Origin: Cognatundibacterium curvum
Lineage (GTDB): Bacteria > Pseudomonadota > Gammaproteobacteria > Burkholderiales > Burkholderiaceae_D
Assembly (NCBI RefSeq): GCF_014284235.1
Contig: NZ_JACOGD010000007.1
Location: 1 to 64,000 of the forward strand
Reading direction: 5' to 3'
Length of the DNA stretch: 64,000 bases
Positions 680 to 30,284 of the stretch are shown one piece after another. A model generated the notes under the pieces. It was not told where the DNA came from and made no database searches. It was given only the letters and a program-made list of their open reading frames with translations. The position numbers and the translations under genes were made by a program. Every line of letters begins with the position of its first letter. The stretch's first letter is position 1.

Positions 680-2644
680 ATGAAACCTGATCTCGCGAAA
701 ATACTGATTCCATCCCGGCATCCTGTGGGCGAAGACAATTGCAGGGCTACGATTACACGTCAATGGTTACTGGAGCAACGTCATTTGTCGGGCGATCACG
801 CTATTGTGCAGAACAGCCACCTGGATTTTTTCATTTGTGCTTCAGAAGCGTTCCCCGAGATTGAGGCTGACATCAGCCGCGCCACCAAAAGTGTTGATCT
901 GATTTGCTTTGGCTTCGATCCAGCCATGGAAATCAGCCTCAGGCACGGCGCTACCTGGCCACGCGGCAAACGCTATGGAGACCTGTTACTGGAGGTAGCA
1001 AATCGCGGTGTCGTTGTGCGTTTGCTAGTCTGGTATGCGGGAGACGGTCATTTAATCGAAGCTGCTGGAAGAATGGCAAATAATCTGCCCGGCCACCCTG
1101 CCTGGTCGTCAGTGCAAGACAAAAAAAGTCCGGACTATGCAATCAGGCGTTATCGCGAAGACTGGTGGGACAATGCGATGCAAGCGTTGCCGCGTTCTTC
1201 ATCCAATCCCTTCACCCGGTGTAGCAATCTGCATGTGCGCCACCGCGCCTTGCCCCTGATCGACACCATGCTCACGGTTGGCCCCAGCGACCTGACCAAC
1301 ATACAGAAGATGTCCCTGGTACGTGTCGGCACACATCACCAAAAACCAATATTGATCGACTACGAAGTACCCGAAGCCGCTGTCGGCTATGTGATGGGTT
1401 TGAATTCACTCACAGACTACTGGGATACGCCGCGTCATCGCTACGACGAACCACTGCGCGGTAAAGCATGGGAAGGTAGTGCCGATAAAAAGAATCCCAT
1501 GCTAGGCCTGAAGCCTTACCGCGACTATGCCATCCGCGTTGAAGGGCCGGCCTTAGTCGATCTGAACCGTAATTTCACAGCCGCCTGGGATAGCGCAGAA
1601 AAAAACTGGAACCCACACCACCAGGACTTCGGTGCACCTGGCTCCCTGGTGGCGCATCGTATGTCCGTCAACAAAGAGCGCCTGGTGGCGCGCGCTGCAC
1701 CGAATTGCAAACAAGTTCAGATCCTGCGCACCGATGCAATCAGTGGAGATCAAACCATACAGGAATTGTATTGGCTGGTCACGAATCAGGCACGTCAGTA
1801 TCTCTACATAGAAAATCAGTACTTCCAGAACGACGAATGGGCTGCACTGTTGAAAGAGCGCAGACAAATCACACTGCGCGGGCTGAAAAATAACTGTGGC
1901 ATGGCAAAAGAAGATATCCCACCTTTGCACGTATTTATCGTAATTCCTGAACCCGAACAAGATGGCATGATACCCGCCACCTATGACACGATAGCCGCAC
2001 TCGGTCAGGGTCAGCAAATGGCCAAGTATGACGCGGGCGTCAAACAATTTCGTGAACTTACACCCGGGCCCGACGATAGGATGTTCGAACTTGCAAAAAA
2101 ATACCTGCGCAGCATAGGAAAGCTAGACTCCCCTTTATTGAATGATATGAAGGATTCAGCAAAAAAACCTGTCGTCACGAAGGCAGATATGGACAAGCTG
2201 GGCATCAAAGTATTGATCGCAAAACTATACACCCAGGACCAGCGTACAGCAGCCACTCGTGAAATTTACATCCATAGCAAACTACTCATCGCTGACGATG
2301 TGTTCTTTACGCTGGGCAGCGCCAATCTGAATGTGCGCAGTATGTGCTGCGATGGTGAAATCAATATCGCAGGCACCGACCCTGCATGGATCAAGACCAT
2401 GCGCAAGCGGGTCTGGTCCAATATTGCTGGTGAGCTGGATGGGGGTGATGGGAGTTTATATGCAATCCAACAAACACATAAAAATTGGATTAAAACGATG
2501 GACAAAAACGCCTCCGTCGTTACCGACAAAACAGGACGACTCGATGCTCACATCGTGACTTTTTCGGACGACAGAGGTGTCACCCTGTCTCCACGCATCA
2601 GTCAACGCGACGAAACACTCATTCCGGATACGGTGCAAGCATGA
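680..2644 (+). CDS. Phospholipase D family protein, probable T6SS lipase effector (Tle5-like)
   Basis: A 654-residue protein with two HxKxxxxD (HKD) signatures: H220/K222/D227 in the first half and H532/K534/D539 in the second, the second followed by GSANLN. Two HKD motifs in one chain define the phospholipase D superfamily, where the histidines form and resolve a phospho-enzyme on phosphatidyl lipids. There is no signal peptide, which fits delivery by the T6SS rather than Sec export. The gene lies directly after vgrG, and its stop overlaps the start of a secreted Sel1-repeat gene (ATGA). That order is known for Tle5 effectors with Sel1-type immunity proteins, for example around PldB of Pseudomonas aeruginosa. 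Enzyme class is secure; the antibacterial role is inferred from context. Confidence 0.88.
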   Translation: MKPDLAKILIPSRHPVGEDNCRATITRQWLLEQRHLSGDHAIVQNSHLDFFICASEAFPEIEADISRATKSVDLICFGFDPAMEISLRHGATWPRGKRYGDLLLEVANRGVVVRLLVWYAGDGHLIEAAGRMANNLPGHPAWSSVQDKKSPDYAIRRYREDWWDNAMQALPRSSSNPFTRCSNLHVRHRALPLIDTMLTVGPSDLTNIQKMSLVRVGTHHQKPILIDYEVPEAAVGYVMGLNSLTDYWDTPRHRYDEPLRGKAWEGSADKKNPMLGLKPYRDYAIRVEGPALVDLNRNFTAAWDSAEKNWNPHHQDFGAPGSLVAHRMSVNKERLVARAAPNCKQVQILRTDAISGDQTIQELYWLVTNQARQYLYIENQYFQNDEWAALLKERRQITLRGLKNNCGMAKEDIPPLHVFIVIPEPEQDGMIPATYDTIAALGQGQQMAKYDAGVKQFRELTPGPDDRMFELAKKYLRSIGKLDSPLLNDMKDSAKKPVVTKADMDKLGIKVLIAKLYTQDQRTAATREIYIHSKLLIADDVFFTLGSANLNVRSMCCDGEINIAGTDPAWIKTMRKRVWSNIAGELDGGDGSLYAIQQTHKNWIKTMDKNASVVTDKTGRLDAHIVTFSDDRGVTLSPRISQRDETLIPDTVQA

Positions 2645-4416
2645 CACTCCATTTTACACATCCTGCTTGGCAGACCACACGCCAGCTAAGCAAAGCTATC
2701 CTGGTTTCTTTCTTCTTACTCTTGAGTGCACACGCTATGGACATGTCACTGCCCCGCAATCATATGCCCGAATTATTTCATCCCCATCGCACCCAGTTTG
2801 CCTGTCTGCATGAAGCCGAGTTTGTCCCAGCAATAGATCCGCAAGCAGAACGCTGGTACCAGGAAGCCGAAGGCATGCGCGATCCGAAATTTTGGAACGA
2901 TGAAATCGACTGGTCACGCGTTATCACCTTGTATCGCCAGGCGGCAGAGCGCAAACACTGGAAGGCTATGATCGATCTGGCGACCCTGTATCAGGATGGT
3001 ATCTGGGATGGGGACAAGCCATTAGTCGAACGTCAGCCTCAGGCAGCTATGGCATTGACTGAAGAGGCAATGCGCTTAGGCATACCGCTGGCGTGGGCAG
3101 TGATGGGGAATTATTACCGCAGTGGCTTTCTGGTTCCCGTCAATCCCACCGCAGCCTGGGCTTTTTGGCAAAGAGCAGCCGACATGGGTAGCCCTTATGC
3201 ACAAACACGGATTGGTAAATCCTTGCAAACTACCGTTGACCAACCAGAGAAACTATACTGGGCGAATAGAAAAATCGGTCTGCAAATGCTGGAATGCGCG
3301 TTCGCTCAGGGTGATGGCAATGCCGCCTACGAATTAGGGCTGCAATACGAAGCCATATTGAAAGATAATGCTAAAGCGCTGCACTACTATCACGAGGGCG
3401 TCAAAATGGGTAGTGCTGCTTGCGCCAATTCCTTATTCGTAGGTTTCAGTTCAGTGGGCAAGAATGCCATCATTCCTGGTGCTGGCATCGATAATGATCG
3501 TGCACAACGTTACAATCTGATTGGTGATGCCTTGGCATTCAACCCCGCCATCCGCTTACCAAATCTCGATAAAGTGCTGCCTCTGCCACCAGCTAAACTC
3601 CCGGTCTGGAACGGCGACAAGCATCAATTAATCAATGCCGCCAAAGCCGTCGTCACCCCACCGCCTAAACTGCCGCCACATCCTGGCAGCAGCCGCAACA
3701 ATACCCGCTATTACGTGCCACCTGGTATGACCCTGCCAGCTGAGCCGATCGAGGTCTTGGCCTACTGGCCTTATAAAGCGCCGCGCAGTGGCTACTGGTT
3801 ATTGCAGCTACCGCCTGATCCCGCCTTAGCGGACAAGCCATGGCAAATGCGCACCGTCCACGAGCTGAGTCAACATCTGGCACCACGTCATTATCTCGAA
3901 CGTGAAGTGCTCGGCATGCCCAATGAATGGACCGACTGGGACAGCGACATGCAGCAAGCGATCATGGCGATGTTTTGGTGGGAGTTAAGCCCGAATCAAC
4001 GTATCAACAGCCGCTGGTCATATTTGGGTAAGGCGATACCTTTGCAGCAGCCCGCATTGAGTCCGCTGGTCGCACGCCAGCTTGCGCTCTGTATCGCGCC
4101 ACCGGAGCAACAACTGATGTGTGATGGGAATCAGACTTGTCCGCAAACCGGTATCTGGCAAAGCAGTCTGGCAGCCAGTCATCCATGCAGCAAACGCTGG
4201 GCGGCAATGAGTGTGACCGCGCAGCAGGCCTATGTGCAGGCCGGGCAGCGTTTTCCGGTGCCACCGCAAACCGGAACAGGAACTGGCGCAGAAACCGTCA
4301 TTCCAGCGGGAGAGCTGCGTTGGCAATGGCTGGGAAGCGCTACCGCAAACCAGATGCATGTGGATGGCAGAATGCACATCAGTTTGCCGCCACAGTGGCA
4401 GGATGGACAGGGCTAA
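2641..4416 (+). CDS. Sel1-repeat periplasmic protein, probable immunity to the PLD effector (long copy)
   Basis: A 591-residue protein with an N-terminal hydrophobic segment ending in SAHA (about residues 17-32) that looks like a Sec signal peptide. Residues 80-290 hold helical Sel1-like repeats (LYRQAAERKHWKAMIDLATLYQ, then AWAFWQRAADMGSPYAQ, then HYYHEGVKMGSAA). Residues 300-355 form a proline-rich linker with PNLDKVLPLPPAKLP. A C-terminal domain of about 235 residues is rich in Trp and Cys and is not recognised. The start overlaps the phospholipase stop by 4 bases, so the two are translationally coupled. Export to the periplasm is where a phospholipase effector would have to be blocked. 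The immunity function is inferred from position and family. Confidence 0.8.
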   Translation: MTLHFTHPAWQTTRQLSKAILVSFFLLLSAHAMDMSLPRNHMPELFHPHRTQFACLHEAEFVPAIDPQAERWYQEAEGMRDPKFWNDEIDWSRVITLYRQAAERKHWKAMIDLATLYQDGIWDGDKPLVERQPQAAMALTEEAMRLGIPLAWAVMGNYYRSGFLVPVNPTAAWAFWQRAADMGSPYAQTRIGKSLQTTVDQPEKLYWANRKIGLQMLECAFAQGDGNAAYELGLQYEAILKDNAKALHYYHEGVKMGSAACANSLFVGFSSVGKNAIIPGAGIDNDRAQRYNLIGDALAFNPAIRLPNLDKVLPLPPAKLPVWNGDKHQLINAAKAVVTPPPKLPPHPGSSRNNTRYYVPPGMTLPAEPIEVLAYWPYKAPRSGYWLLQLPPDPALADKPWQMRTVHELSQHLAPRHYLEREVLGMPNEWTDWDSDMQQAIMAMFWWELSPNQRINSRWSYLGKAIPLQQPALSPLVARQLALCIAPPEQQLMCDGNQTCPQTGIWQSSLAASHPCSKRWAAMSVTAQQAYVQAGQRFPVPPQTGTGTGAETVIPAGELRWQWLGSATANQMHVDGRMHISLPPQWQDGQG

Positions 4417-4453
4417 AAAGAAAAAAGAGTGAACAAAAGGGGAGGACTTAGTG

Positions 4454-5542
4454 ATGTATATACACATGAATCACCGGCTTCCACATTTTGCTTGGCGGAC
4501 CGCACGCCAGCTATGCAAAGCCATCCAGGTTTCTTTCTTTTTACTCTTGAGTGCACACGCTATGGACATGTCCCTGCCCCGCAATCATATGCCCGAATTA
4601 TTTCATCCCCATCGCACCCAGTTTGCCTGTCTGCATGAAGCCGAGCTTGTCCCAGCAATAGATCCGCAAGCAGAACGCTGGTACCAGGAAGCCGAAGGCA
4701 TGCGCGATCCGAAATTTTGGAACGATGAAATCGATTGGTCACGCGTCATCACCTTGTATCGCCAGGCGGCAGAGCGCAAACACTGGAAGGCTATGATCGA
4801 TCTGGCGACCCTGTATCAGGACGGTATCTGGGATGGGGACAAGCCATTAGTCGAACGTCAGCCACAGGCAGCTATGGCATTGACTGAAGAGGCAATGCGC
4901 TTAGGCATACCGCTGGCGTGGGCAGTGATGGGGAATTATTACCGCAGTGGCTTTCTGGTTCCCGTCAATCCCACCGCAGCCTGGGCTTTTTGGCAAAAAG
5001 CAGCCGACATGGGTAGCCCCTATTCGCAAACTCTGATCGGAAAATCCTTACTTACCTCAAAAGATCAGCCGGACAAATTACTCTGGGCAAATGAAAAAAT
5101 CGGTCTGCAAATGCTGGAATGCGCGTTCGCTCAGGGTGATGGCAATGCTGCCTATGAATTAGGACTTCAATACGAAGTCATATTTAAGAATAAAGCTAAA
5201 GCGCTGCGCTACTATCACGAGGGCGTCAAAATGGGTAGTGCTGCTTGCACCAATTCTTTATTCACAGGTTTCCATTCTTCAGGCAGGAATGCCATCATTC
5301 CTGGTGCTGGCATCGATAATGATCGTGCACAACGTTACAATCTGATTGGTGATGCCTTGGCATTCAACCCCGCCATCCGCTTACCAAATCTCGATAAAGT
5401 ACTACCTCTGCCGCCAGCTAAACTCTCGGTCTGGAACGGTGACAAGCATCAATTGGTCAATGCCGCCAAAGCCGTCGTCACCCCACCGCCCAAACTGCCG
5501 CCACATCCTGGCAGCAATCAAAAAACTTCAACGCTGAATTGA
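4454..5542 (+). CDS. Sel1-repeat periplasmic protein, second (short) immunity copy
   Basis: A tandem duplicate of the preceding gene. It has a very similar signal region, Sel1 repeats and PNLDKVLPLPPAKL linker, but stops after PPHPGS with a short unrelated tail, so it lacks the C-terminal domain of about 235 residues. The start is placed at ATG 4454, eight bases after GGAGG at 4441-4445; an in-frame GTG at 4451 is an alternative. Differences from the first copy cluster in the third to fifth repeats (for example LLTSKDQPDKLLWANEK against LQTTVDQPEKLYWANRK), while flanking stretches are nearly identical. Its stop abuts the ccoS stop on the other strand with no spacer. Possibly immunity to a related phospholipase variant, or a dosage copy. 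Confidence 0.8.
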   Translation: MYIHMNHRLPHFAWRTARQLCKAIQVSFFLLLSAHAMDMSLPRNHMPELFHPHRTQFACLHEAELVPAIDPQAERWYQEAEGMRDPKFWNDEIDWSRVITLYRQAAERKHWKAMIDLATLYQDGIWDGDKPLVERQPQAAMALTEEAMRLGIPLAWAVMGNYYRSGFLVPVNPTAAWAFWQKAADMGSPYSQTLIGKSLLTSKDQPDKLLWANEKIGLQMLECAFAQGDGNAAYELGLQYEVIFKNKAKALRYYHEGVKMGSAACTNSLFTGFHSSGRNAIIPGAGIDNDRAQRYNLIGDALAFNPAIRLPNLDKVLPLPPAKLSVWNGDKHQLVNAAKAVVTPPPKLPPHPGSNQKTSTLN

Positions 5543-20246: not shown

Positions 20247-20900
20247 CTACAGCCTGAAAATATCAGCCAGAATATTCTTTTCATTAGCACGCACCTCCAG
20301 CTTGCCTTTTTCTCCCGTAAATACCAGACAATCACCCGGCGTTTCCTGATTAATGATGCTGGTTCCCTGGCTGATCACGCTGTTTTTTCTGACCAGACTA
20401 CGTCCTATCACCGCCGTATTCGGATACAGGATCACTCCCTCTTGCAGCACTGGGGCGACACCGTGGTTTTTCCCTACTGTTGAATTTTGATACAAGACCA
20501 GATAATTCGCGTAGCTTGCCTTCGCCAGCACAATACCAACGGAATGACCGATAAAGAAAATTTCCGGCAATTCGATCTCATAAAAACAGTCGATGCCATT
20601 GAGCGACTTATTCAAATAAAACAGCTTGGTGCACAGCTGTTTATCCTGCCGGTTACGCCATATGGTATTCGACAAAAAATATAAAAAAATCGTGTACTGA
20701 CTGGAATGCAGGTAGTCGAATTCGCCTGGTCTCCACATCCTGACTGCATTGATACACACCTCCAGACGCGCCAGCGCCTGATCCAGATCTTTGTCTATTC
20801 TGACCGACAAGTCCTGCTGACCATCTGGAAAAAAATGTTCCAGCTGTCGCACCAGATATTTCATTAAACCGCTGCGCTCCATACCCGGCAGACTGATCAT
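20247..20900 (-). CDS. Left-handed beta-helix (hexapeptide) acyltransferase, serine acetyltransferase-like
   Basis: A 217-residue protein, last gene of the sugar operon. Residues 1-105 are helical (similar to the N-terminal domain of serine acetyltransferases). The second half shows hexapeptide-type turns: IGHSVGIVLAKA, NSTVGKNHGVAPVLQEGVILYPNTAVIG, VRKNSVISQGT. The histidine in FFIGHSVG takes the place of the catalytic histidine of the CysE family. The start ATG at 20900 overlaps the stop of the preceding epimerase gene (ATGA). It is distinct from the true cysE at 49748. In this context it most probably acetylates the sugar or a sugar nucleotide; that is inference. Confidence 0.75.
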   Translation of the reverse strand: MISLPGMERSGLMKYLVRQLEHFFPDGQQDLSVRIDKDLDQALARLEVCINAVRMWRPGEFDYLHSSQYTIFLYFLSNTIWRNRQDKQLCTKLFYLNKSLNGIDCFYEIELPEIFFIGHSVGIVLAKASYANYLVLYQNSTVGKNHGVAPVLQEGVILYPNTAVIGRSLVRKNSVISQGTSIINQETPGDCLVFTGEKGKLEVRANEKNILADIFRL

Positions 20901-21736
20901 ATTTTTCCTTTCAACATAGACGGTAACTGTTCGCATACACTGCTTGCAGTCCACCCGAATTCATCAAGCATCTTTGCTACTGAAATCTGCCCGGGCGGCA
21001 CATATGCCTCACTATTGGCAATCGTGGCTGCTATCGTAACGCCTGTGATCTCCGTAATAGCATCAAACAATGCAGCATTACTGGTATTGGTACCGCTGGC
21101 GACGTTATAAATCCCACCCGTTTCCGACCCGGCCAAATGCAGCAATGCGGATACCACATCATCGATCACCACATAATCACGTACAAACTGGCGCGAAGAC
21201 TCGATACGCAGCGGCTCACTAACTGGCTGCTGCACGACTTTCTGCAGCAGAGTTGCGAGAAAACCCTCTGCATCCAGATCCTGGCTAACCACGCAGGATA
21301 AACGCGCAACGCTGGCCTTGTTTTTTCCAAGTTGTAAACACAGGGACTCGCCCAATGCTTTGGACAAATCAAACAAGTGACGTGGATGATGCGGGTTCAG
21401 TTGCAAAGCATCGGATTCTGCTAACAAACCTGCTGCAGACTGGTCATACAAGCGGGTCGAGGACAGATACACCAGCTTACGGAATACACCCGCATGCAGT
21501 ATCTGATTGAGGCAACTGACATGGGCATCCACACAATCAAACCCGCGCTGCGCGAAATCGGCTGTCACACCGGCACAATAAAACACTGTACCCAAATCGA
21601 GACGCAACAAACCAGGATCATTTTTCTCCGGTATCCAGCAATCCCAGCCATCTGCCACCAATCGGCGATGCAGATGCTGACCGATGAAGCCATGCCCGCC
21701 GACCAGAGTCGCAACCCGCTTTGATGTATTGCCCAT
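20897..21736 (-). CDS. NAD-dependent epimerase/dehydratase (SDR) of the sugar operon, probable 4-ketoreductase
   Basis: A 279-residue extended short-chain dehydrogenase. The N-terminal Rossmann motif is GGHGFIG (residues 13-19) and the active-site strand gives YLSSTRLYD. The catalytic tyrosine of YxxxK appears to be replaced: the matching stretch reads LFDLSK, so F122 stands where Tyr is expected while K126 is kept. In related clusters an SDR at this position reduces the 4-keto group of the C-methylated CDP-sugar. The substitution could mean altered chemistry or a shifted tyrosine (Y97 in STRLYD is near). It is separated by 44 bases from the acyltransferase upstream. Confidence 0.78.
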   Translation of the reverse strand: MGNTSKRVATLVGGHGFIGQHLHRRLVADGWDCWIPEKNDPGLLRLDLGTVFYCAGVTADFAQRGFDCVDAHVSCLNQILHAGVFRKLVYLSSTRLYDQSAAGLLAESDALQLNPHHPRHLFDLSKALGESLCLQLGKNKASVARLSCVVSQDLDAEGFLATLLQKVVQQPVSEPLRIESSRQFVRDYVVIDDVVSALLHLAGSETGGIYNVASGTNTSNAALFDAITEITGVTIAATIANSEAYVPPGQISVAKMLDEFGWTASSVCEQLPSMLKGKI

Positions 21737-21780
21737 GTGTTCGCATCCTTTCTGCCAGTTCTGTCAGGCCTCAGTCCTGA

Positions 21781-22278
21781 TTACGCCTGCACACCACGCT
21801 CACCCAATTGCCGCAATGGGTTCCCGCCCTGTATCGTGTAGGCTGGCACCTCGCCACGCACGACCGAACCGGCGGCAATCACGCAGCCCCGGCGCAGCAC
21901 TGCACCATCAAGCAAGACACAATTCGCGCCTATCCACACGTCATCCTCAATCACAATGCCACCTTTGCTGGGCAAAAAGCCCTGCTGATTAATTCGGACA
22001 TCGCGCGCCATATAAGCATGATTCACAGGCGCGAAAGTGCAATTCGCAGCGATCGCCACATCGGCGCCAATACGGATGCCATTGCCGGTATACAGCACAC
22101 AACCGGAATTGATCACACTGCGCTCACCGATCAACAGATCGCCACTGCCGCCCGCCGGTTTAATTTTGACAAAACTATCGATCACGGCGCGGGCAGCAAG
22201 TACGATACGGCTTCCTCTGACGGAATCTTCAATATCCGCCAGACGGGAAACCACAGCATCGGGATGAATTTCTATCAT
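21781..22278 (-). CDS. Hexapeptide-repeat acyltransferase
   Basis: A 165-residue left-handed beta-helix protein built almost wholly of hexapeptide turns (for example GDLLIGERSVINSGCVLYTGNGIRIGADVAIAANC, then GGIVIEDDVWIGANCVLLDGAVLRRGCVIAAGSVV). NHAY holds the likely catalytic histidine of the maltose/galactoside O-acetyltransferase and sugar N-acetyltransferase group. It starts 10 bases after the methyltransferase stop. Probably O- or N-acetylates the glycan made by this operon. No aminotransferase is present, so O-acetylation is more likely than N-acetylation, but this is inference. Confidence 0.82.
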   Translation of the reverse strand: MIEIHPDAVVSRLADIEDSVRGSRIVLAARAVIDSFVKIKPAGGSGDLLIGERSVINSGCVLYTGNGIRIGADVAIAANCTFAPVNHAYMARDVRINQQGFLPSKGGIVIEDDVWIGANCVLLDGAVLRRGCVIAAGSVVRGEVPAYTIQGGNPLRQLGERGVQA

Positions 22279-22288
22279 AGGCAGCCTC

Positions 22289-23515
22289 TTACACTATCTT
22301 CCATTCAGGAATCGCAAACACCAGGCGACCGCCCCAGTTGCGTATCATGTGTAAATCCGCACTGATTTCCTGCTCCAGATTCCAGGGCAATACCAACACA
22401 AAATCCGGCTGGTCTTGGATCAGATGATCCACATGGACGATAGGAATCCGGCTGCCCGGCATGCATTTCCCTTGCTTATGCGGATTGATATCCACTACAT
22501 AGGACAGTAAATCGGCCCGTACACCAGCAAAATTGAGCAAGGTATTGCCTTTAGCCGCTGCACCATAGGCAGCAACTTTCAGACCTTGCTCACGACTGGC
22601 AAGCAAAAATTTAAGTAAGGCATATTTAGTTTGCTGAGCACGCTGTTGCGCATTGCGGTAGAAAGTCAGGCTATCGACGCCAGCTTCCCGCTCTTTCAGT
22701 AACAAAGCATCTACCCGCCCACTGCGCTCACGTTGGCCGGTATCTGAACGCTGCGCCAGCACACGCAAACTACCACCGTGGGTAGTCAGCTGCTCCACGT
22801 CAAAAACACTTAAGCCCTGACTATTGAAAATACGCTCTACCGCCAATAAGGAGAGATAAGAAAAATGCTCGTGGTAAGCCGTGTCAAACTGATTCAGGTT
22901 CACCATATTCAGCAAATGAGGAAACTCAAAACTGGCTACCCCATGAGGCTTGAGCAAGGTCGCAAATCCAGCCACAAAATCATTCATATCCGGCACATGC
23001 GCCAGCACATTATTTGCCACCGTCAGATCCGCTGATTTCCCTTCTGCAGCCAACTGCTTTGCCAGTGTCAGTCCAAAAAACTCTTCACGTATCGCCAGCC
23101 CTTTGTCACGCGCAGCAGCAGCCGTACTGGCGGTCGGCTCTATACCCAGACAAGGAATCCCCGCCTGCTGTACATACTGCAGCAGATAGCCATCATTAGC
23201 TGCCACCTCAACCACATGACTGTCTGCATTCAGTCCCAGACGCTGCTGCATATCCTGCACAAAACGCTTTGCATGCGCCAGCCAGCTCGACGAGCAAGAG
23301 CTGAAATACGCGTAATCGGCATCAAACAGATTTTCACGGCCAGTGAAGTCCAGGGTTTGTACCAGCCAGCACTGTTCACACACCATGAGCTTGAGAGGCA
23401 ACCAGGTCTCGGCCTGCTGCAACTGCTGCGCAGACAAATAGGCATTCGAAGGAGGTGCACTACCGAGATCGAGAAAAGTATGCGTTAAAGCCTGGCCACA
23501 GTGTCGGCAATTCAT
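22289..23515 (-). CDS. NDP-sugar C-methyltransferase (SAM-dependent, TylC3-like)
   Basis: A 408-residue methyltransferase with the three-part build of sugar C-methyltransferases: an N-terminal zinc-binding domain (C3xxC6 and C46xxC49, CRHC and CEQC), a SAM-binding core with VVEVAANDGYLLQYV followed by the acidic GIEP, and a C-terminal Rossmann-like domain with YGAAAKGNTLLNF and VVDINPHKQGKCMPG. Enzymes of this family add a methyl group to C3 of 4-keto-6-deoxyhexoses, giving branched sugars. The ATG at 23515 overlaps the stop of the rfbC-like gene, and this start puts CRHC directly at the N-terminus as usual. The substrate is probably the CDP-4-keto-6-deoxyhexose made by the upstream enzymes. 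Confidence 0.87.
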   Translation of the reverse strand: MNCRHCGQALTHTFLDLGSAPPSNAYLSAQQLQQAETWLPLKLMVCEQCWLVQTLDFTGRENLFDADYAYFSSCSSSWLAHAKRFVQDMQQRLGLNADSHVVEVAANDGYLLQYVQQAGIPCLGIEPTASTAAAARDKGLAIREEFFGLTLAKQLAAEGKSADLTVANNVLAHVPDMNDFVAGFATLLKPHGVASFEFPHLLNMVNLNQFDTAYHEHFSYLSLLAVERIFNSQGLSVFDVEQLTTHGGSLRVLAQRSDTGQRERSGRVDALLLKEREAGVDSLTFYRNAQQRAQQTKYALLKFLLASREQGLKVAAYGAAAKGNTLLNFAGVRADLLSYVVDINPHKQGKCMPGSRIPIVHVDHLIQDQPDFVLVLPWNLEQEISADLHMIRNWGGRLVFAIPEWKIV

Positions 23516-24075
23516 CGCCCTACTCCCTGAAAATGTTGGTCTAAAAATGGAAATTGCTGATCGCGTTCTGATTGTCGGCCAATTGGCAATGGCCAATGGA
23601 TTTGCAAACGGGGATCTTGCACATGGATGCCGAATTCGCTATCCGGCGCATAAGCCTGGCTATGACAGTACAGCATTTCTACGTCATCGCTGAGTGTCTG
23701 AAAGCCATGCGCGAAGCCCTCTGGTATCAGATATGAACAGGCTTTTTCAGCAATCAGATGCACCGCATGCCAATGCAGGAAGGTGGATGAACCTAGACGC
23801 AAATCCACCGCCACATCCCAGACTTCACCACGCAGACAGGTAATCAGCTTCGCCTCAGCATGCGGTGCTAATTGCATATGCAATCCACGCACACTGCCTT
23901 TCTCTTTGGTATAGGTATGATTGATCTGCTGTACAGGCTCACGCCAGCCAAACAAGGCAAGTTCTTCAGCGCAGAACAGGCGTTGAAAATAACCGCGCTC
24001 ATCCCCCAGTGGCAGGCGCTGTATCAGATGTAAATCTCTGAGCGGGGTCTCTATCAATTCAAATCTCTGAGCCAT
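23512..24075 (-). CDS. rfbC: dTDP-4-dehydrorhamnose 3,5-epimerase-like protein
   Basis: A 187-residue cupin-fold epimerase of the RmlC/RfbC family, with DERGYFQR near the N-terminus, the catalytic-histidine strand SVRGLHMQ, and later WDVAVDLRLGS and IPEGFAHGFQTL. The neighbours supply CDP-4-keto-6-deoxyglucose rather than dTDP-sugars, and no rmlA, rmlB or rmlD is in the window, so it probably epimerises C3 and/or C5 of the CDP-linked intermediate. It follows rfbG after 11 bases. The symbol reflects the family, not a proven rhamnose role. Confidence 0.85.
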   Translation of the reverse strand: MAQRFELIETPLRDLHLIQRLPLGDERGYFQRLFCAEELALFGWREPVQQINHTYTKEKGSVRGLHMQLAPHAEAKLITCLRGEVWDVAVDLRLGSSTFLHWHAVHLIAEKACSYLIPEGFAHGFQTLSDDVEMLYCHSQAYAPDSEFGIHVQDPRLQIHWPLPIGRQSERDQQFPFLDQHFQGVGR

Positions 24076-24086
24076 GTCCTGTCCTT

Positions 24087-25157
24087 TCAGGCCTGCAAAA
24101 AATCCTGCAAATCGCGGTCACACAGCTGTGCCGCAGGCACACCTTGATAAAACTGCTGATACCAGGCCATGGTGCGCTGCACCGACTCGTCCAGTTGCCA
24201 ACGGCCGTAGATATTCAGTTCAGCTCTCGCCTTGGCAACATCCAAAGCCAGCAAGCCAGCTTCATGCGGACCTTCTGGCTGGGTCGCAAAACGCAGATCA
24301 CCATGACCAAATGCGGCATGCGCAGTCTGCACCACTTCCCGTACGCTAGCGGCACTGTCCGGTCCAAAATTCCAGGCATCTGCAAAGCGCGCATCAGCCC
24401 ACAGTGACTCCGCCAGGCACAGGTAAGCACACAGTGGCTCCAGCACATGCTGCCAGGGGCGTACTGCATCAGGACGCCGTATCAAGACTTCCTGCCCCAG
24501 TTGCCAGGCTTTGGCTGCATCGGGTAATAATCGGTCCTGCGACCAGTCACCGCCACCGATCACATTGCCCGCCCTTGCTGATGCAACGCGGATATCCATC
24601 TCTTGCAGAAAAGCGCTGCGGTAACTGGCAATCACCAGTTCACAGGCTGCTTTACTCGCACTGTAAGGATCATGCCCTCCTAACTCAGCAGTTTCAGGAT
24701 AAGACTGACCAGTCTCCAGATTTTTATACACTTTGTCAGTAGTGACCATGACACCAACCCGCACACCTGGCGTCAACCGCATCGCATCAAGCACATGCGC
24801 CGTTCCCATCACATTGCTGGACAAGGTTGCAAGCGGCGTCTGATACGCAGGTCTGACCAAGGCCTGGGCAGCCAGATGCAGCACAATTTCCGGCTGCGCT
24901 TGCCGGAAGCTGCGTTTGACCGTTTCGGCGTCACGGATATCTGTCAATTGATGACGGACACCCGATAATGACAGCGCTTCAAATAAGTTAGGTGTAGTGG
25001 CCGGAGCCAGCGCCAGCCCATGCACCTGCGCTCCCAGCGCAGACAACCAGTGTGCCAGCCAGGCCCCTTTAAAGCCGGTATGCCCGCTCAGTAAAACACG
25101 CTTACCCCGCCAAAACGCAGGGTCAGGCAGACGCGGTCTGGCTACCAGATTTTCCAT
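24087..25157 (-). CDS. rfbG: CDP-glucose 4,6-dehydratase
   Basis: A 356-residue extended SDR converting CDP-D-glucose to CDP-4-keto-6-deoxy-D-glucose, the entry to CDP-deoxysugars. It has [14 protein letters not shown] at the NAD-binding N-terminus, [11 protein letters not shown], and an intact YxxxK in [28 protein letters not shown] and [19 protein letters not shown] are characteristic of RfbG rather than RmlB. The start at ATG 25157 overlaps the rfbF stop by 16 bases; a longer form from 25178 is less likely. It acts directly after the cytidylyltransferase encoded upstream. Confidence 0.92.
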
Positions 25158-25912
25158 GGCGCCCGTCCGGAATTCCACAATTCTTCCAGCATATTTTTTT
25201 CACGTAAGGTATCCATAGGCTGCCAGAAGCCACTGTGCTCGAAGGCCATCAGTTGCTGCTGACTGGCTAACTGATTCAGCGGATCGCTCTCCCAACTGCA
25301 GCTGTCATCTGGAATCAACTGCAACACTTCGGGCGACAATACAAAATAGCCGCCATTAATCCAGCCGCCATCGCCACGTGGTTTTTCTGTAAAACCTGCG
25401 ACCTGTGTACCCTGACGTTCCAGCGCACCATAACGTCCCGGCGGCAATACGGCAGTGACGGTGGCAGACTTACCGTGTTCACGGTGAAAGCGTATAGACT
25501 CGGCGATATTCACATCCGAGACACCATCACCATACGTAAAGCAAAATGCTTCCTCATCCTGTATGTAACGGGCCACCCGCTTCAAACGCCCGCCTGTCAT
25601 GGTTTCTTCACCGGTATCCACTAAGGTGACTTTCCAGGGTTCTGCATGCCGCTCATGCACTTCCATGCGATTGTTTTGCATATCGAAGGTCACATCCGAC
25701 ATATGCAGAAAGTAATTGGCGAAATACTCTTTGATCATGTAGCCCTTATAGCCACAGCAAATCACGAAATCATTCACGCCATGCGCGGAATAGCTTTTCA
25801 TGATGTGCCACAAAATAGGGTGACCGCCAATTTCTATCATGGGCTTAGGCCGCAAATGGGTCTCTTCAGAAATCCGGGTACCGAGGCCACCCGCCAAAAT
25901 CACCGCTTTCAT
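25142..25912 (-). CDS. rfbF: Glucose-1-phosphate cytidylyltransferase
   Basis: A 256-residue nucleotidyltransferase making CDP-glucose from CTP and glucose-1-phosphate. The signature [22 protein letters not shown] opens the protein (residues 8-29), followed by [10 protein letters not shown] for metal and nucleotide binding and [12 protein letters not shown]. The GTRISEET form separates RfbF from the dTTP-using RmlA. The start overlaps the stop of the TPR glycosyltransferase gene (ATGA), placing it second in the operon. Confidence 0.94.
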
Positions 25913-28107
25913 ACCTGATTATCCTCACAATAACGTAACCACATCTGACGTAAAGCAAGATCAAAGCTCTGCCCGAATGCCGGCTCATTCATCAGCAATG
26001 ATTCGCGCATCGTCTGTCGCATCGTCTGGCGATAATGCACCAGCCTCTCTATGTCGTGCGCCAGTATCAGCGCCTTTTGCGCATATTCCATCTCTGTTTC
26101 TGCGATCCACTCCGGGAATCCGGCTGCGTGCAGAATACTGGCCCCCAGCCGCCCGACACTGGGCCTGTCCACTAATGTGATATAGGGTATGCCCATATAC
26201 AGACTCTCAATTAAGGTAGTCCCTGAGTTATGTGGGAAGCAATCCAGACTGATATCGATTTTCTGCAAAGGCACCCAGGAAGGCGATGCATAGCCGATAT
26301 CCAGACGCGAACGCTCTATGCCATAGGCTTCGAAGCGCTTCGCCATTTCATCTTGTATACCAGGATCATGGAAGTCTCCGCTATTAAGTACCAGACGTGA
26401 ATTTGGCATCGCGTCAAGGATGGCCGCCCACACTTTAATCACTTTGTGATTGATACGATTGGCGCGCGACAAGCTGCCAAAGGTCACAATGCCGTCTTTC
26501 AGGCATGGAGGCTCACTCATTTCAGGTACGCCGGGATCAGGGCGGTATACGATAGTCGGCCCGTTCAGACGCCAAATCTTCTCTGAGAACAGATGATCGC
26601 AGTGATCGGTCACCGAGTACTGGTCAGTCACGTAGTAATCGATCGCCTTCAATCCCGTGGTATAGCCGAAATCCAGCCAGTGAAAGGAAACCGGCGCCGG
26701 CTTGCGTGCAAATACGCCAAGCCGGTTGTCGGTCGAATGTCCGCCAATATCAATCAGAATATCAATACCGTCATTACGTATCTGCGCAGCCAGTTCTGCA
26801 TCTGATAAATGATTAGTTACTCTCCAATGATCAGTACATGCCTTATATTTATCTGTCACCACGTCTTCCATTGGCGGATCTGAATAGGCAAATACTTCGA
26901 TATTGCTGCGATCCAGATGCTCCATCATAGGCAACAGGAAATAACGGCAGACCTGGTTGTAAAAAGCTTGTGAAACGATGCCGACTTTCAGCTTCTTGCC
27001 CGGATCGCGTTGATTCAAAAAAGGCTGCCATTCACCACGGAACGGCGCACCAAAACGCTGCTCGAATTCTTCATAGCCACCATAAATCACCTCTGCCGGT
27101 AAATCCGGATGGTAATTCAGCACAAATAACAAGGAACTATATATCTTACGACTGAATTTAGATTGCGGATCTTGCTCAAAGGCCAGGGCCTGCATATAAG
27201 CGTCCAGTGCTTTATCGGCCTTACTGGCTCTTTGCAAGGAATTGCCATAGGCAGCCCAAATTTTTGAATTACGTGGCTGATTCAGAATTTCAAGCTCAGC
27301 AAAATCAATCGCTTCCTTTGCCTTACCTTTAAGTGTCAGCACATCAATCAATGCCGGTACCGCGATAGGATTATCAGGCATGATTGCGATTGCTTTGCGA
27401 TAGTAGTCTTCGGCCTTGTCGTATTCTTTCTGTGCCGTGTAGACCTCAGCGAGATTACTATAAAAGAAAGGCACTCCAGGCTTGATGCTGATTGCTCTCA
27501 AATAAGAAGCAATCGCCTCTTCCTGCTGACCATTGCCATTGAGGGCGTTACCCAGATTATTGTGCGCATTCGCCAGCCCTGGCTCCATCTGTATTGCCTT
27601 TTGCAAAGCCTGTATCGCTTCAGGGAAGCGCTGCAATCCATTGAGCGCGGCGCCCACATTCCCCTGAATGTGGGCATTCTGTGGCATCAGCGCCAATGCA
27701 CGCTTACCAACTTCGAGTGCACGTTCAAAATCCTGCTGCTCAATGCGACTGATGGCGAGGTAATCCCAGCCATATGGGTCACGTGGCAAGACCGTCGTCA
27801 GCCAGGCACTGACTTTTTCGAGCAAACCAAAGTTCTTTACTTCAATCAGCGCGTTCATTAAGTCGTAACAGGCATCGGCATCGACCTTAGCCGCAACGCT
27901 GCCTTCAAAGGCTTGTTGCAATGCATGCCAGGCGGCTTCAAAGCTACTTTGCTGTATACCTATTTTTGCCAAGAGATAATGGGCATCCGCATTCAAGGGA
28001 TAGCGTGCGGTAATTTGTTGGCAGAGCTCGGCGGCATGGACTACATCGCCATTTTTCAGACTTGCTTTGGCTTCAGACAGAAATTTCTGCGGATTAATTG
28101 CTTTCAC
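25909..28107 (-). CDS. TPR-repeat SPINDLY/OGT-type (GT41) glycosyltransferase, probable flagellin glycosyltransferase
   Basis: A 732-residue soluble protein. The N-terminal half (about 1-340) is a run of tetratricopeptide repeats (such as [33 protein letters not shown]). The C-terminal half is a GT41 catalytic domain like O-GlcNAc transferase/[86 protein letters not shown] at 28107 is chosen because AGAGGT lies seven bases upstream; the open frame continues to 28164. Such enzymes glycosylate Ser/Thr of proteins, with TPRs selecting the target. It is the first gene of the CDP-sugar operon and divergent from flagellin 380 bases away, so flagellin is the likely acceptor. Confidence 0.87.
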
Positions 28108-28434
28108 TATAACTACCTCTTTCAAGTCCTGACACGGAAAATGTAGCAAAATTCCCTGCAACACCTATCATGCAACGTGGAAATCACAGCTGATATGCGC
28201 AAGAAGCCAATTTGACGCCCTCATTTTATCGAGAAAATTTCTTTTTAATCAGCAAAACAGAGGCAAGATTACAGTCTAAATTACCCTAAAGTATTTTAAA
28301 AAACTGTCGTAGAGCGGAAAATACAGAGAAACTTAAGCAAAAAAAATAATATTTATTTGCAGTAACTTCCTAAAAGTTTTCAAACCTTGACCGTTACCCT
28401 TCACAACGGCGGTGCAACAGTCAACAAGACAGAC
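28108..28434. other. Divergent control region between the glycosylation operon and fliC
   Basis: About 330 A/T-rich bases separate the two divergent starts; no gene is visible. The flagellin promoter sits at its right edge. On the minus strand TCTCGATAA near 28230 resembles a sigma-28 -10 box, but the TAAA upstream is about five bases too close, so no promoter is assigned to the operon. Confidence 0.5.
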
Positions 28435-28487: not shown

Positions 28488-30284
28488 ATGGCTTCATATA
28501 TCAATACCAATATTGCGTCCATCAATGCACAACGCAATCTGAACTCTTCTCAAGCGTCTTTGTCCACTGCGATGCAACGCCTGTCATCCGGTATGCGTAT
28601 CAACAGCGCCAAAGATGATGCGGCGGGTCTGGCGATTTCCCAGCGTATGACTTCCCAGCTGAGCGGTCAAAATCAAGCGGCACGTAATGCGAATGACGGT
28701 ATCTCTCTCGCACAAACCGCTGAGGGCGATTTACAGCAAATCGGCTCTAACTTGCAACGTATCCGTGATCTGGCTGTTCAGGCATCCAACGGTACCAACA
28801 GTGCATCTGACCGCGCAGCGTTGAACAACGAAGCCAGCCAGCTGATCTCTGAGATCAACCGTGTGGCCAGCACATCTAACTTCAACGGCGTGAACCTGCT
28901 GGACGGCTCTTTCTCTAACCAGACTTTCCAGGTTGGTGCAAACGGCACATCGAACGATCAGATCACGATCGGTGCGATTGCCAGCGCTAAATCCAGCTCT
29001 TTGGGTGTAGGCTCCAGCTCCAGCTACTCCGCTACATTGGCTGGCGCATCGAATACCAACGATGCAATCGGCGCAGGCTCCCTGGTCATTAACGGTGTAA
29101 GCATAGGCGCCTCCAGTGCTGACGGCGTTTCCTACAAAGATTCTCACGGCAGTGCGATTGCTAAAGCAGCAGCGATCAATGCAGCTTCTGGCAACACTGG
29201 GGTATCTGCAGTCGTCAATGCAAACAGCGTTGCCGGTACCGCAGTCAGCAGCGGCGGCTTGACTGCCATCACTTCTGGCTCTATCAAAATCAACGGCGTT
29301 GACATCGGCGCAGTTGCTTCTGCAAGTACAGCTGTAGAGCGCGGTTCCCAAATGACAGCAGCGATTAACGCTAAGTCCGCACAATCCGGCGTGTCCGCAA
29401 CCTACGACACGTCCACTGGTGCAGTGAATCTGTCAGCTTCCGATGGTCGTAACATCACCATCGAAAGAACTGCAAATGCAGCTACCACTGATGCACTGAC
29501 CGGTCTGACTGCAAGTACTGCCAGTGGCGCCACTACTTCGACCGTATCCGCCCAGGTCAGCCTGACTTCCAGCAGCTCCAAAGGTATTCAGGTCACCAAT
29601 GGTTCGGAAACCAGCGTTACAGCGGGTGGTGCAGCGACTACATCCGGTTTGTCAGCCGGTGGCATCACGATCAACGGCTTTGATATCGGCGCGGTTGCCA
29701 GTGGTGCGACAGCAGCGATCGCCGGTCAGAACATCGCCGATGCTATCAATGCCTCTGCTGCAAAAACAGGTGTCACAGCAACTGCAAGCTCCAGCGGCAC
29801 ACTGAAATTGCAATCCCTCACAGGTGGCAACATTGTTGTTGCAGGTACAGCTGGTGGTCTGACAGCCTCTGGCCTGACAGCCGGTACAACCAGCGCTGCT
29901 GCGGGTGTAGGTGCAACTTCGGTTGGTCTGAGCACAACGGCAGTCTCTGCTTCTGTAACAGTTGGCGGCGGTTTGTCTTCACTGGATCTGACTTCCGCAT
30001 CAAGTGCAACCTCAGCGCTGGCGACTATCGACTCCGCGCTGCAATCTGTGAACTCCTCCCGCGCTTCTTTGGGTGCATTCCAGAACCGTTTCACTTCTGC
30101 AGTGACCAGCCTGCAAACTTCGCAAGAAAACTTATCTTCTGCACGTAGCCGTATTCAAGATGCTGACTTCGCATCGGAAACAGCGAATATGACCCGCGCA
30201 CAGGTATTGCAACAAGCTGGTACGGCGATTCTGGCGCAAGCTAACTCGGCACCTAACGGCGTGTTGGCTCTGCTGCGCGGCTAA
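28488..30284 (+). CDS. fliC: Flagellin
   Basis: A 598-residue flagellin. The conserved N-terminal D0/D1 helices (AQRNLNSSQASLSTAMQRLSSG, INSAKDDAAGLAISQRM) and the C-terminal D1/D0 helices (SRIQDADFASETANM, QQAGTAILAQANSAPNGVLALL) are intact. The middle (about 200-490) is an expanded, Ser/Thr/Ala/Gly-rich insert with at least three repeats of the flagellin_IN type, each with a core like INGVDIGAVAS followed by AINA and GVSA. This surface region offers many Ser/Thr sites for O-glycosylation by the adjacent GT41 enzyme. Only one flagellin gene is in the window. AAGGAG is well spaced before the ATG. Confidence 0.96.
   Translation: MASYINTNIASINAQRNLNSSQASLSTAMQRLSSGMRINSAKDDAAGLAISQRMTSQLSGQNQAARNANDGISLAQTAEGDLQQIGSNLQRIRDLAVQASNGTNSASDRAALNNEASQLISEINRVASTSNFNGVNLLDGSFSNQTFQVGANGTSNDQITIGAIASAKSSSLGVGSSSSYSATLAGASNTNDAIGAGSLVINGVSIGASSADGVSYKDSHGSAIAKAAAINAASGNTGVSAVVNANSVAGTAVSSGGLTAITSGSIKINGVDIGAVASASTAVERGSQMTAAINAKSAQSGVSATYDTSTGAVNLSASDGRNITIERTANAATTDALTGLTASTASGATTSTVSAQVSLTSSSSKGIQVTNGSETSVTAGGAATTSGLSAGGITINGFDIGAVASGATAAIAGQNIADAINASAAKTGVTATASSSGTLKLQSLTGGNIVVAGTAGGLTASGLTAGTTSAAAGVGATSVGLSTTAVSASVTVGGGLSSLDLTSASSATSALATIDSALQSVNSSRASLGAFQNRFTSAVTSLQTSQENLSSARSRIQDADFASETANMTRAQVLQQAGTAILAQANSAPNGVLALLRG

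Follow-up and report, generated by a model that had tools for sequence, protein, structure and literature searches.

A probable flagellin glycosylation island beside fliC of Cognatundibacterium curvum, with a predicted route to a CDP-linked, C-methyl-branched sugar

What is a tightly packed operon of sugar genes doing next to a flagellin gene? The question is raised by a stretch of 64,000 nucleotides from Cognatundibacterium curvum (contig NZ_JACOGD010000007.1, positions 1 to 64,000; hereafter the window), in which eight genes, all on the minus strand between 20247 and 28107, are divergent from fliC. An earlier note, made from the letters alone, had proposed that these genes make a CDP-linked, C-methyl-branched deoxysugar and put it on flagellin. 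From the comparisons described below we conclude that the operon very probably serves to make an unusual sugar with a methyl branch and to link this sugar to the flagellum, and that it is likely to be a flagellin glycosylation island. The argument uses the following features, where LbH1 and LbH2 are two putative acyltransferases and SDR stands for short-chain dehydrogenase/reductase.

25909..28107, minus strand: TPR and GT41 putative flagellin O-glycosyltransferase, 732 amino acids (PF13844, AlphaFold2 model, fold matches)
26455..26457, minus strand: codon of Arg551, which aligns with the donor-site Lys of GT41 enzymes (alignment of the clade against other domains)
25142..25912, minus strand: rfbF, glucose-1-phosphate cytidylyltransferase (TIGR02623, 477 bits, cut-off 300)
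24087..25157, minus strand: rfbG, CDP-glucose 4,6-dehydratase (TIGR02622, 435.7 bits, cut-off 278; TDK and YSASK motifs)
23512..24075, minus strand: rfbC-like NDP-4-keto-sugar epimerase (3-, 5- or 3,5-) (PF00908, 188 bits)
22289..23515, minus strand: TylC3/TcaB9-type sugar C-methyltransferase (PF08421, PF13489, PF08484)
21781..22278, minus strand: LbH1, putative hexapeptide acyltransferase (PF00132)
20897..21736, minus strand: extended SDR (PF01370; Phe122 codon at 21371-21373)
20247..20900, minus strand: LbH2, putative CysE/EpsC-like acyltransferase (NF041874, 37.2 bits, below the cut-off of 150)
28371..28397, plus strand: sigma-28-like promoter of fliC (motif match 117 nt before the open reading frame)
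28488..30284, plus strand: fliC, flagellin, 598 amino acids, presumed acceptor (PF00669, PF00700)

The operon reads GT41, rfbF, rfbG, rfbC-like, C-methyltransferase, LbH1, SDR and LbH2, and its eight open reading frames (ORFs), their Pfam and NCBIfam families and the four start/stop overlaps were all confirmed as the earlier note had described them. The overlaps measure 4 nt between GT41 and rfbF, 16 nt between rfbF and rfbG (if rfbG starts at the ATG at 25157, which we judged the best start), 4 nt between the rfbC-like gene and the methyltransferase gene, and 4 nt between the SDR gene and LbH2, an ATGA overlap with the LbH2 start at 20900. The divergent arrangement held as well, with 380 bp separating the starts of GT41 and fliC (28488); the fliC product matches Flagellin_N with 151.5 bits, and its central region consists of 30.5% Ser and Thr. 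The G+C content of the operon resembles that of its surroundings, and dN/dS ratios of 0.016-0.075 against Undibacterium rugosum place all eight genes under purifying selection, so that they are not chance ORFs. A transferase combined with sugar-biosynthesis genes beside fliC is the location known from flagellin glycosylation islands. What is seen directly is that the genes are there, that they are linked to fliC and inherited together, and which catalytic motifs they have kept or lost.

Is the linkage peculiar to this strain? Looking for the same gene set beside fliC in relatives, a check that had been proposed together with the original idea, we scanned 43 Undibacterium genomes. Flagellin_N was matched in 41 of them and the methyltransferase in 31 at E 1e-3; two of these matches were weak only, leaving 29 genomes at 60-100% identity. 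In 28 of these 29 the methyltransferase gene shares a contig with fliC and is 5.0-16.5 kb away from it, and in the other one the genes are split over contigs of an 880-contig assembly. Loci were read in 27 of the 28 relatives (G133 was left out). All 27 contain rfbF, rfbG, rfbC and the methyltransferase gene as a constant core. SDR and LbH1 are present in 21 and a DegT gene in the other six, never both and never neither; with the window this makes 22 SDR loci and 6 DegT loci. The last gene is swapped too, being CmcI-like in 20 relatives, LbH2 in four and neither in three (a contig end truncates one of these). The GT41 gene is divergent from fliC in each of the 26 relatives' stretches that hold fliC, with a gap of 277-1279 bp, although two of these are irregular, one with a flagellin piece in between (L149) and one with a split GT41 (L133). 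In seven loci (L124, L127, L129, L134, L135, L141 and L142) the slot is empty, the GGDEF gene adjoining fliC with no ORF of 100 amino acids between them. Because the core is found in 27 of 27 loci, the C4 branch and the last gene swap, and empty slots occur, the island occupies one fixed position, its core being constant and its ends exchangeable. Such presence, absence and exchange between close relatives is a mark of flagellin glycosylation islands.

The exchange can be followed in a comparison with Undibacterium seohonense. Measured in 500-base steps, nucleotide identity reaches 77-89% between about 20.5 and 30.0 kb, a block that begins within the last gene of the operon and runs almost to the end of fliC; where the two flanks can be aligned it is 63-74%. 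Seven operon genes and fliC have a synonymous divergence of 0.6-1.1, compared with 2.1 in the last gene of the operon and 2.4 in flaG, and saturation is reached in fliD, fliS and the genes for the GGDEF protein and the response regulator (greB gave no pair). The pattern supports the operon and fliC as a joint unit, even if linkage alone could produce it. It also bears on the question whether the GT41 protein modifies another protein, such as FlaG, FliD, a pilin or several of these, and FliC not at all or not mainly. Two observations would suit such a target: the same genome has a second GT41 cluster near pilin genes and a PglL/Wzy_C protein, and genome G060 carries a GT41-rfbF-rfbG-methyltransferase set in a 20 kb stretch that, as read, contains no flagellin gene. 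Since fliC moved between species with the operon, whereas flaG and fliD (51% and 57% amino acid identity) were not moved along with them, we hold this alternative to be very unlikely, and the comparison with relatives backs flagellin as the most likely target.

Could the CDP-sugar instead be destined for the O-antigen of lipopolysaccharide or for a capsule, with the fliC neighbourhood being incidental? This would fit genome G010, in which the core lies beside an ABC exporter, and a Desulfolutivibrio plasmid, in which it occurs with a family-2 and another glycosyltransferase. Within the window, 27 proteins out of 56 ORFs listed (the eight of the operon and groups of 9 and 10) were scanned with Pfam, and no polysaccharide flippase, polymerase or ABC exporter was among them, in line with the earlier statement that O-antigen genes are absent. 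Judged by an exporter, a polymerase or a lipid-carrier transferase, these 27 proteins do not include an O-antigen cluster, and the sole transferase among them is the GT41 protein, which carries TPRs. Along with the fliC linkage in the genus and in other genera, this renders a role in O-antigen or capsule improbable. The assembly has a single rfbG above the family cut-off and a single PF08484 methyltransferase, both in this operon, and one weaker Flagellin_N protein elsewhere besides the fliC studied here. A separate locus of the genome, containing Bac_transf, a family-2 transferase and Polysacc_synt_2 as well as rml-like genes (the latter recognized by eye), is for surface polysaccharide, and we count it in favour of flagellin as the target.

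For flagellin glycosylation, the donor, acceptor, sugar structure and order of steps that we infer would be as follows. RfbF would make CDP-glucose, which RfbG would convert to CDP-4-keto-6-deoxyglucose; the rfbC-like enzyme would epimerise this product, and the TylC3-type enzyme would add a methyl branch adjacent to the keto group, most likely at C3. SDR and LbH1, and then LbH2, may complete the sugar by reduction or another NAD-dependent step at C4 and by O-acylation. Finally, the TPR superhelix of the GT41 protein would bind FliC in the cytoplasm, and the enzyme would transfer the sugar to Ser/Thr residues of the FliC central domain before export.

How well do the enzymes agree with this route? 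RfbG contains both TDK and YxxxK (as YSASK), the signature of a CDP-glucose dehydratase, and exceeds its TIGR02622 cut-off; [ST]DK and YxxxK are listed as marking CDP-glucose 4,6-dehydratase in a table in PMC8987622. The rfbC-like enzyme keeps the His, Lys and Tyr positions in relatives and is filed under PF00908, since its 142.1 bits stay below the cut-off of 155.75 for the RmlC equivalog TIGR01221, and for this reason the stereochemistry is not fixed by it. The methyltransferase aligns from end to end with solved sugar 3-C-methyltransferases in the PDB, which makes it TcaB9-type, and it has the motif YHEHF or YHEHY in all rows except one, a distant protein of G043. The sequences favour C3 over C5 as the methylated carbon. 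A single operon and a CDP-sugar route with C-methylation were backed by the relatives, while the designation of the sugar as being of the virenose kind was weakened, as nothing points to that sugar in particular and sequence fixes neither the methylated carbon nor the stereochemistry.

The SDR requires a closer look. It retains the Gly-rich NAD motif, but the Tyr of YxxxK expected in a 4-ketoreductase is Phe122 in the window lineage (seven rows from four genomes), whereas it is Tyr in 19 other rows and in both of two Cupriavidus replicons. The gene has some function, because it is under purifying selection (dN/dS 0.07-0.10), and the alternation of SDR plus LbH1 with DegT places it at the 4-keto step. 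With the Tyr lost, an ordinary 4-ketoreductase, as which it had first been described, became less credible; classical 4-keto reduction by this SDR is doubtful, and this counts against the simple route given above. It also leads to a variant, compatible with the glycosylation of flagellin by the GT41 enzyme, in which the SDR of this lineage is no classical reductase and the sugar consequently ends up as something other than a simple 4-OH branched hexose. The Phe, in a gene under purifying selection, and the placement of the SDR at the 4-keto step speak for it; on the other hand PglF, a nucleotide-sugar SDR, works with Met instead of that Tyr (table in PMC8987622), and we find the variant rather unlikely. 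LbH2 gives no Pfam match, its CysE/EpsC-like similarity is weak (NCBIfam), and its structural model (pLDDT 52.4) is too poor for use in fold comparison.

The transferase itself is a member of the GT41 family (PF13844 Glyco_transf_41, 114.7 bits, cut-off 25, plus TPRs), with the TPR half covering about residues 1-310 and the catalytic domain thereafter. Its AlphaFold2 model, obtained from a 21-sequence alignment, has a pLDDT of 86.9, and the best PDB folds for it are Arabidopsis SPINDLY structures. The nearest named records, which put the host in Undibacterium, are those of U. crateris, U. rugosum and U. seohonense, with GT41 identities of 97%, 94% and 91%. A tree of 88 domains gives full support to a clade of 33 rows that unites the CDP-linked GT41s of the genus with those of G029, G043 and G045, and 13 alignment columns set it apart from a DegT-linked clade. 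Five of these columns (551, 623, 626, 628 and 634) fall in what we take to be two donor-binding stretches of GT41 enzymes. Residue 551 is Arg in 34 of 34 clade domains, the window included, and Lys in all 55 of the other domains aligned (30 and 25). It corresponds to K665 of SPINDLY, to which we ascribe a catalytic role. As Arg551 replaces the donor-site Lys that is canonical in OGT and SPINDLY, we do not file the protein as an O-GlcNAc or O-fucose transferase.

Does Arg551 then read as a code for CDP donors? A sample of 116 genomes of the family Burkholderiaceae gave GT41 matches in 34 (E 1e-60), CDP-glucose dehydratase matches in 33 and methyltransferase matches in 11; GT41 loci were read only in the 34 genomes with a strong match, the rest being scored as none. 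Seven genomes have an Arg-type GT41 and all seven have the methyltransferase, four have the methyltransferase without an Arg-type GT41, and the remaining 105 count as lacking both (Fisher's test: p 7e-9 for genomes and 5e-4 for genera, relatedness uncorrected). As a strict rule the code was nevertheless rejected. Lys-type GT41s occur with the CDP/methyl set near flagellin in G100, G111 and both Cupriavidus replicons, and the set lies behind a Lys-type GT41 in G060. Conversely G138, which is outside the family sample, has an Arg-type GT41 with rfbF at a contig end, and neither rfbG nor the methyltransferase was found in this 83% complete genome. The Arg-type GT41 accompanies the CDP/methyl set in these sequences but is not required for it. 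In a class-wide search (369 genomes, E 1e-85) 11 genomes matched, C. curvum included, flagellin was near the GT41 gene in two of seven loci read further, and Lys was seen at the place of Arg551 wherever our pattern located the stretch, which it failed to do on some ORFs.

Beyond the genus scan, the methyltransferase gene is within about 20 kb of a flagellin gene in 8 of the 11 genomes of the family sample, namely four Undibacterium, G029, G045, G100 and G111, and the same gene set with GT41 near flagellin occurs in the genera of the latter four as well as in two Cupriavidus. On the two Cupriavidus replicons flagellin, GT41, rfbF, rfbG, methyltransferase, rfbC-like and SDR genes lie among flagellar genes, with an LbH2-like gene in one; the records have no annotation there, and the names come from our own comparison. 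Among 40 GT41 loci outside the genus 13 contain flagellin, and two more do so once the neighbouring stretch is included, several loci being cut by contig ends. A number of findings weigh against flagellin glycosylation as the function. The island is missing from at least seven relatives that have fliC and is accordingly not needed for having flagellin, and genes may be passed on as a linked block even if they share no function. Moreover, the sugar genes have other company in the exporter locus of G010 (rfbF-rfbG-rfbC-methyltransferase), on the Desulfolutivibrio plasmid and behind the flagellin-free GT41 of G060; in G043 they are on a different contig from its GT41s, and G127 and G153 have a GT41 from a different clade, with the CDP set about 11 kb downstream of it.

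Islands of this kind have precedents. In Enterobacteriaceae flagellin islands (198 strains), GT41 enzymes with a SPINDLY domain make up 11 of 43 transferases, and the type 23 island, in four strains, is predicted to carry genes for CDP-4-keto-6-deoxyglucose (De Maayer and Cowan 2016, PMC4875605). Like the island here they are known as predictions, place a transferase and sugar genes next to fliC, and are both variable and subject to horizontal exchange, although they lie between fliC and fliA, unlike here, where the slot is between a GGDEF gene and fliC (PMC4875605). For Clostridium butyricum DSM 10702 a 2026 study predicts CDP-paratose on flagellin from a flagellar island with rfbF and rfbG, as here, but with RfbH and RfbS for a dideoxysugar in place of the epimerase and C-methyltransferase (PMC13317340); the terms GT41 and C-methyl are absent from its text. 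FlmG of Caulobacter crescentus is a proven flagellin transferase whose TPR part binds flagellin for O-glycosylation before export, and we liken it to our GT41 by its layout of N-terminal TPR and C-terminal GT-B (PMC7591256). Arabidopsis SPINDLY and OGT share fold and domain order with our GT41 and are its best sequence and structure matches, but use GDP-fucose or UDP-GlcNAc, and SPINDLY has Lys (K665) where our GT41 has Arg551; the bacterial structure 5djs, titled as a K341M mutant, has Met at the aligned place. The sugar of FlmG, CMP-linked pseudaminic acid, is unlike the CDP route predicted here. Solved 3-C-methyltransferases (TcaB9, D-mycarose and others) have, like ours, a Zn-binding N-domain, an S-adenosylmethionine domain, a C-terminal domain and an EHF stretch. 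They act on dTDP-sugars of antibiotics, unlike our operon, where CDP is the sole nucleotide-sugar route.

The novelty is thereby smaller than the earlier note had assumed when it called the glycan unusual, since GT41 flagellin islands and CDP-sugar flagellin islands are already predicted in print (PMC4875605, PMC13317340) and a TPR and GT-B flagellin transferase is proven (PMC7591256). What stands is that, within the available text of the literature searched, we found no C-methyl-branched CDP-sugar tied to flagellin, no Arg-type GT41 clade and no report of a branched-chain sugar on flagellin; the available part of PMC12645811 has nothing on CDP sugars. The island type is known, but the pairing of a CDP C-methyl sugar route with GT41 looks new.

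More tentatively, and with less than even expectation, we propose that the clade forms a GT41 subfamily of its own, adapted to a CDP-linked C-methyl-branched 6-deoxysugar by the exchange of the donor-site Lys for Arg, an altered diphosphate loop (CFPHNSGTT) and a shortening of the loop that precedes it. This enzyme would place on flagellin a sugar with a fixed core, to which swappable C4 and tailoring genes add the decoration, and the genus would thereby have a switchable flagellar coat. If true, such a coat could serve, for instance, against phages or predators, and a flagellin would carry a branched-chain sugar. GT41 enzymes are known to use UDP- and GDP-sugars; they would then use CDP-sugars as well, and the natural Lys-to-Arg change would be a handle on how their donor choice is set.

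The window has 71 three-mismatch matches to the sigma-28 motif, the site before fliC among them, and in most relatives the motif stands at a near-fixed place on the fliC side, in a matrix built from these same sites. No consistent sigma-28 site was found on the GT41 side, where shuffles reach the best score of the window in 4 of 100 cases, and sigma-28 control of the operon was rejected. A sigma-70 scan gave 4 sites versus a mean of 10 in shuffles.

Some further observations concern the island and its relatives. The flagellin piece in L149 (17151-17477, genome G151) is an N-terminus with its own promoter-like site between GT41 and the full fliC, likely a recombination scar, and the GT41 of L133 (1864-4067, genome G132) is split over two overlapping frames of 331 and 442 amino acids, either by a strain frameshift or by a sequence error. 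Phytanoyl-CoA dioxygenase-like and TylF-like genes, perhaps for further sugar decoration, are appended to the island end in 4 of the 27 relatives (L048, 4407-5946). G138 has two flagellin loci on different contigs (L138, L154), each with an adjoining GT41, an Arg-type enzyme in one case and a member of the DegT-linked clade in the other. In G060 (L221, 7623-14540) GT41, rfbF, rfbG, methyltransferase, rfbC and SDR genes stand in a row, possibly for another protein target of the same sugar. The second GT41 of C. curvum (L061, 2121-16949; G000:C22:617000-636500) is distant, with about 30% identity, and heads DegT, KASIII-like, SDR-like and Rieske genes; two pilin-like genes and the one for the PglL/Wzy_C protein are a few kb away. 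GT41 proteins of about 1490-2025 amino acids have two or three GT41 modules per chain (L049 8097-14174, L050 8881-14031, L053 7172-11842, L059 4397-8878); that of L049 adjoins flagellin genes and that of L053 lies within about 12 kb of them, and in both the modules are nearly identical and so recently duplicated. Finally, at 2641-5542 of the window two adjacent genes, the first with DUF6396 and Sel1 matches, are very alike over their first 60 residues and likely are recent tandem copies.

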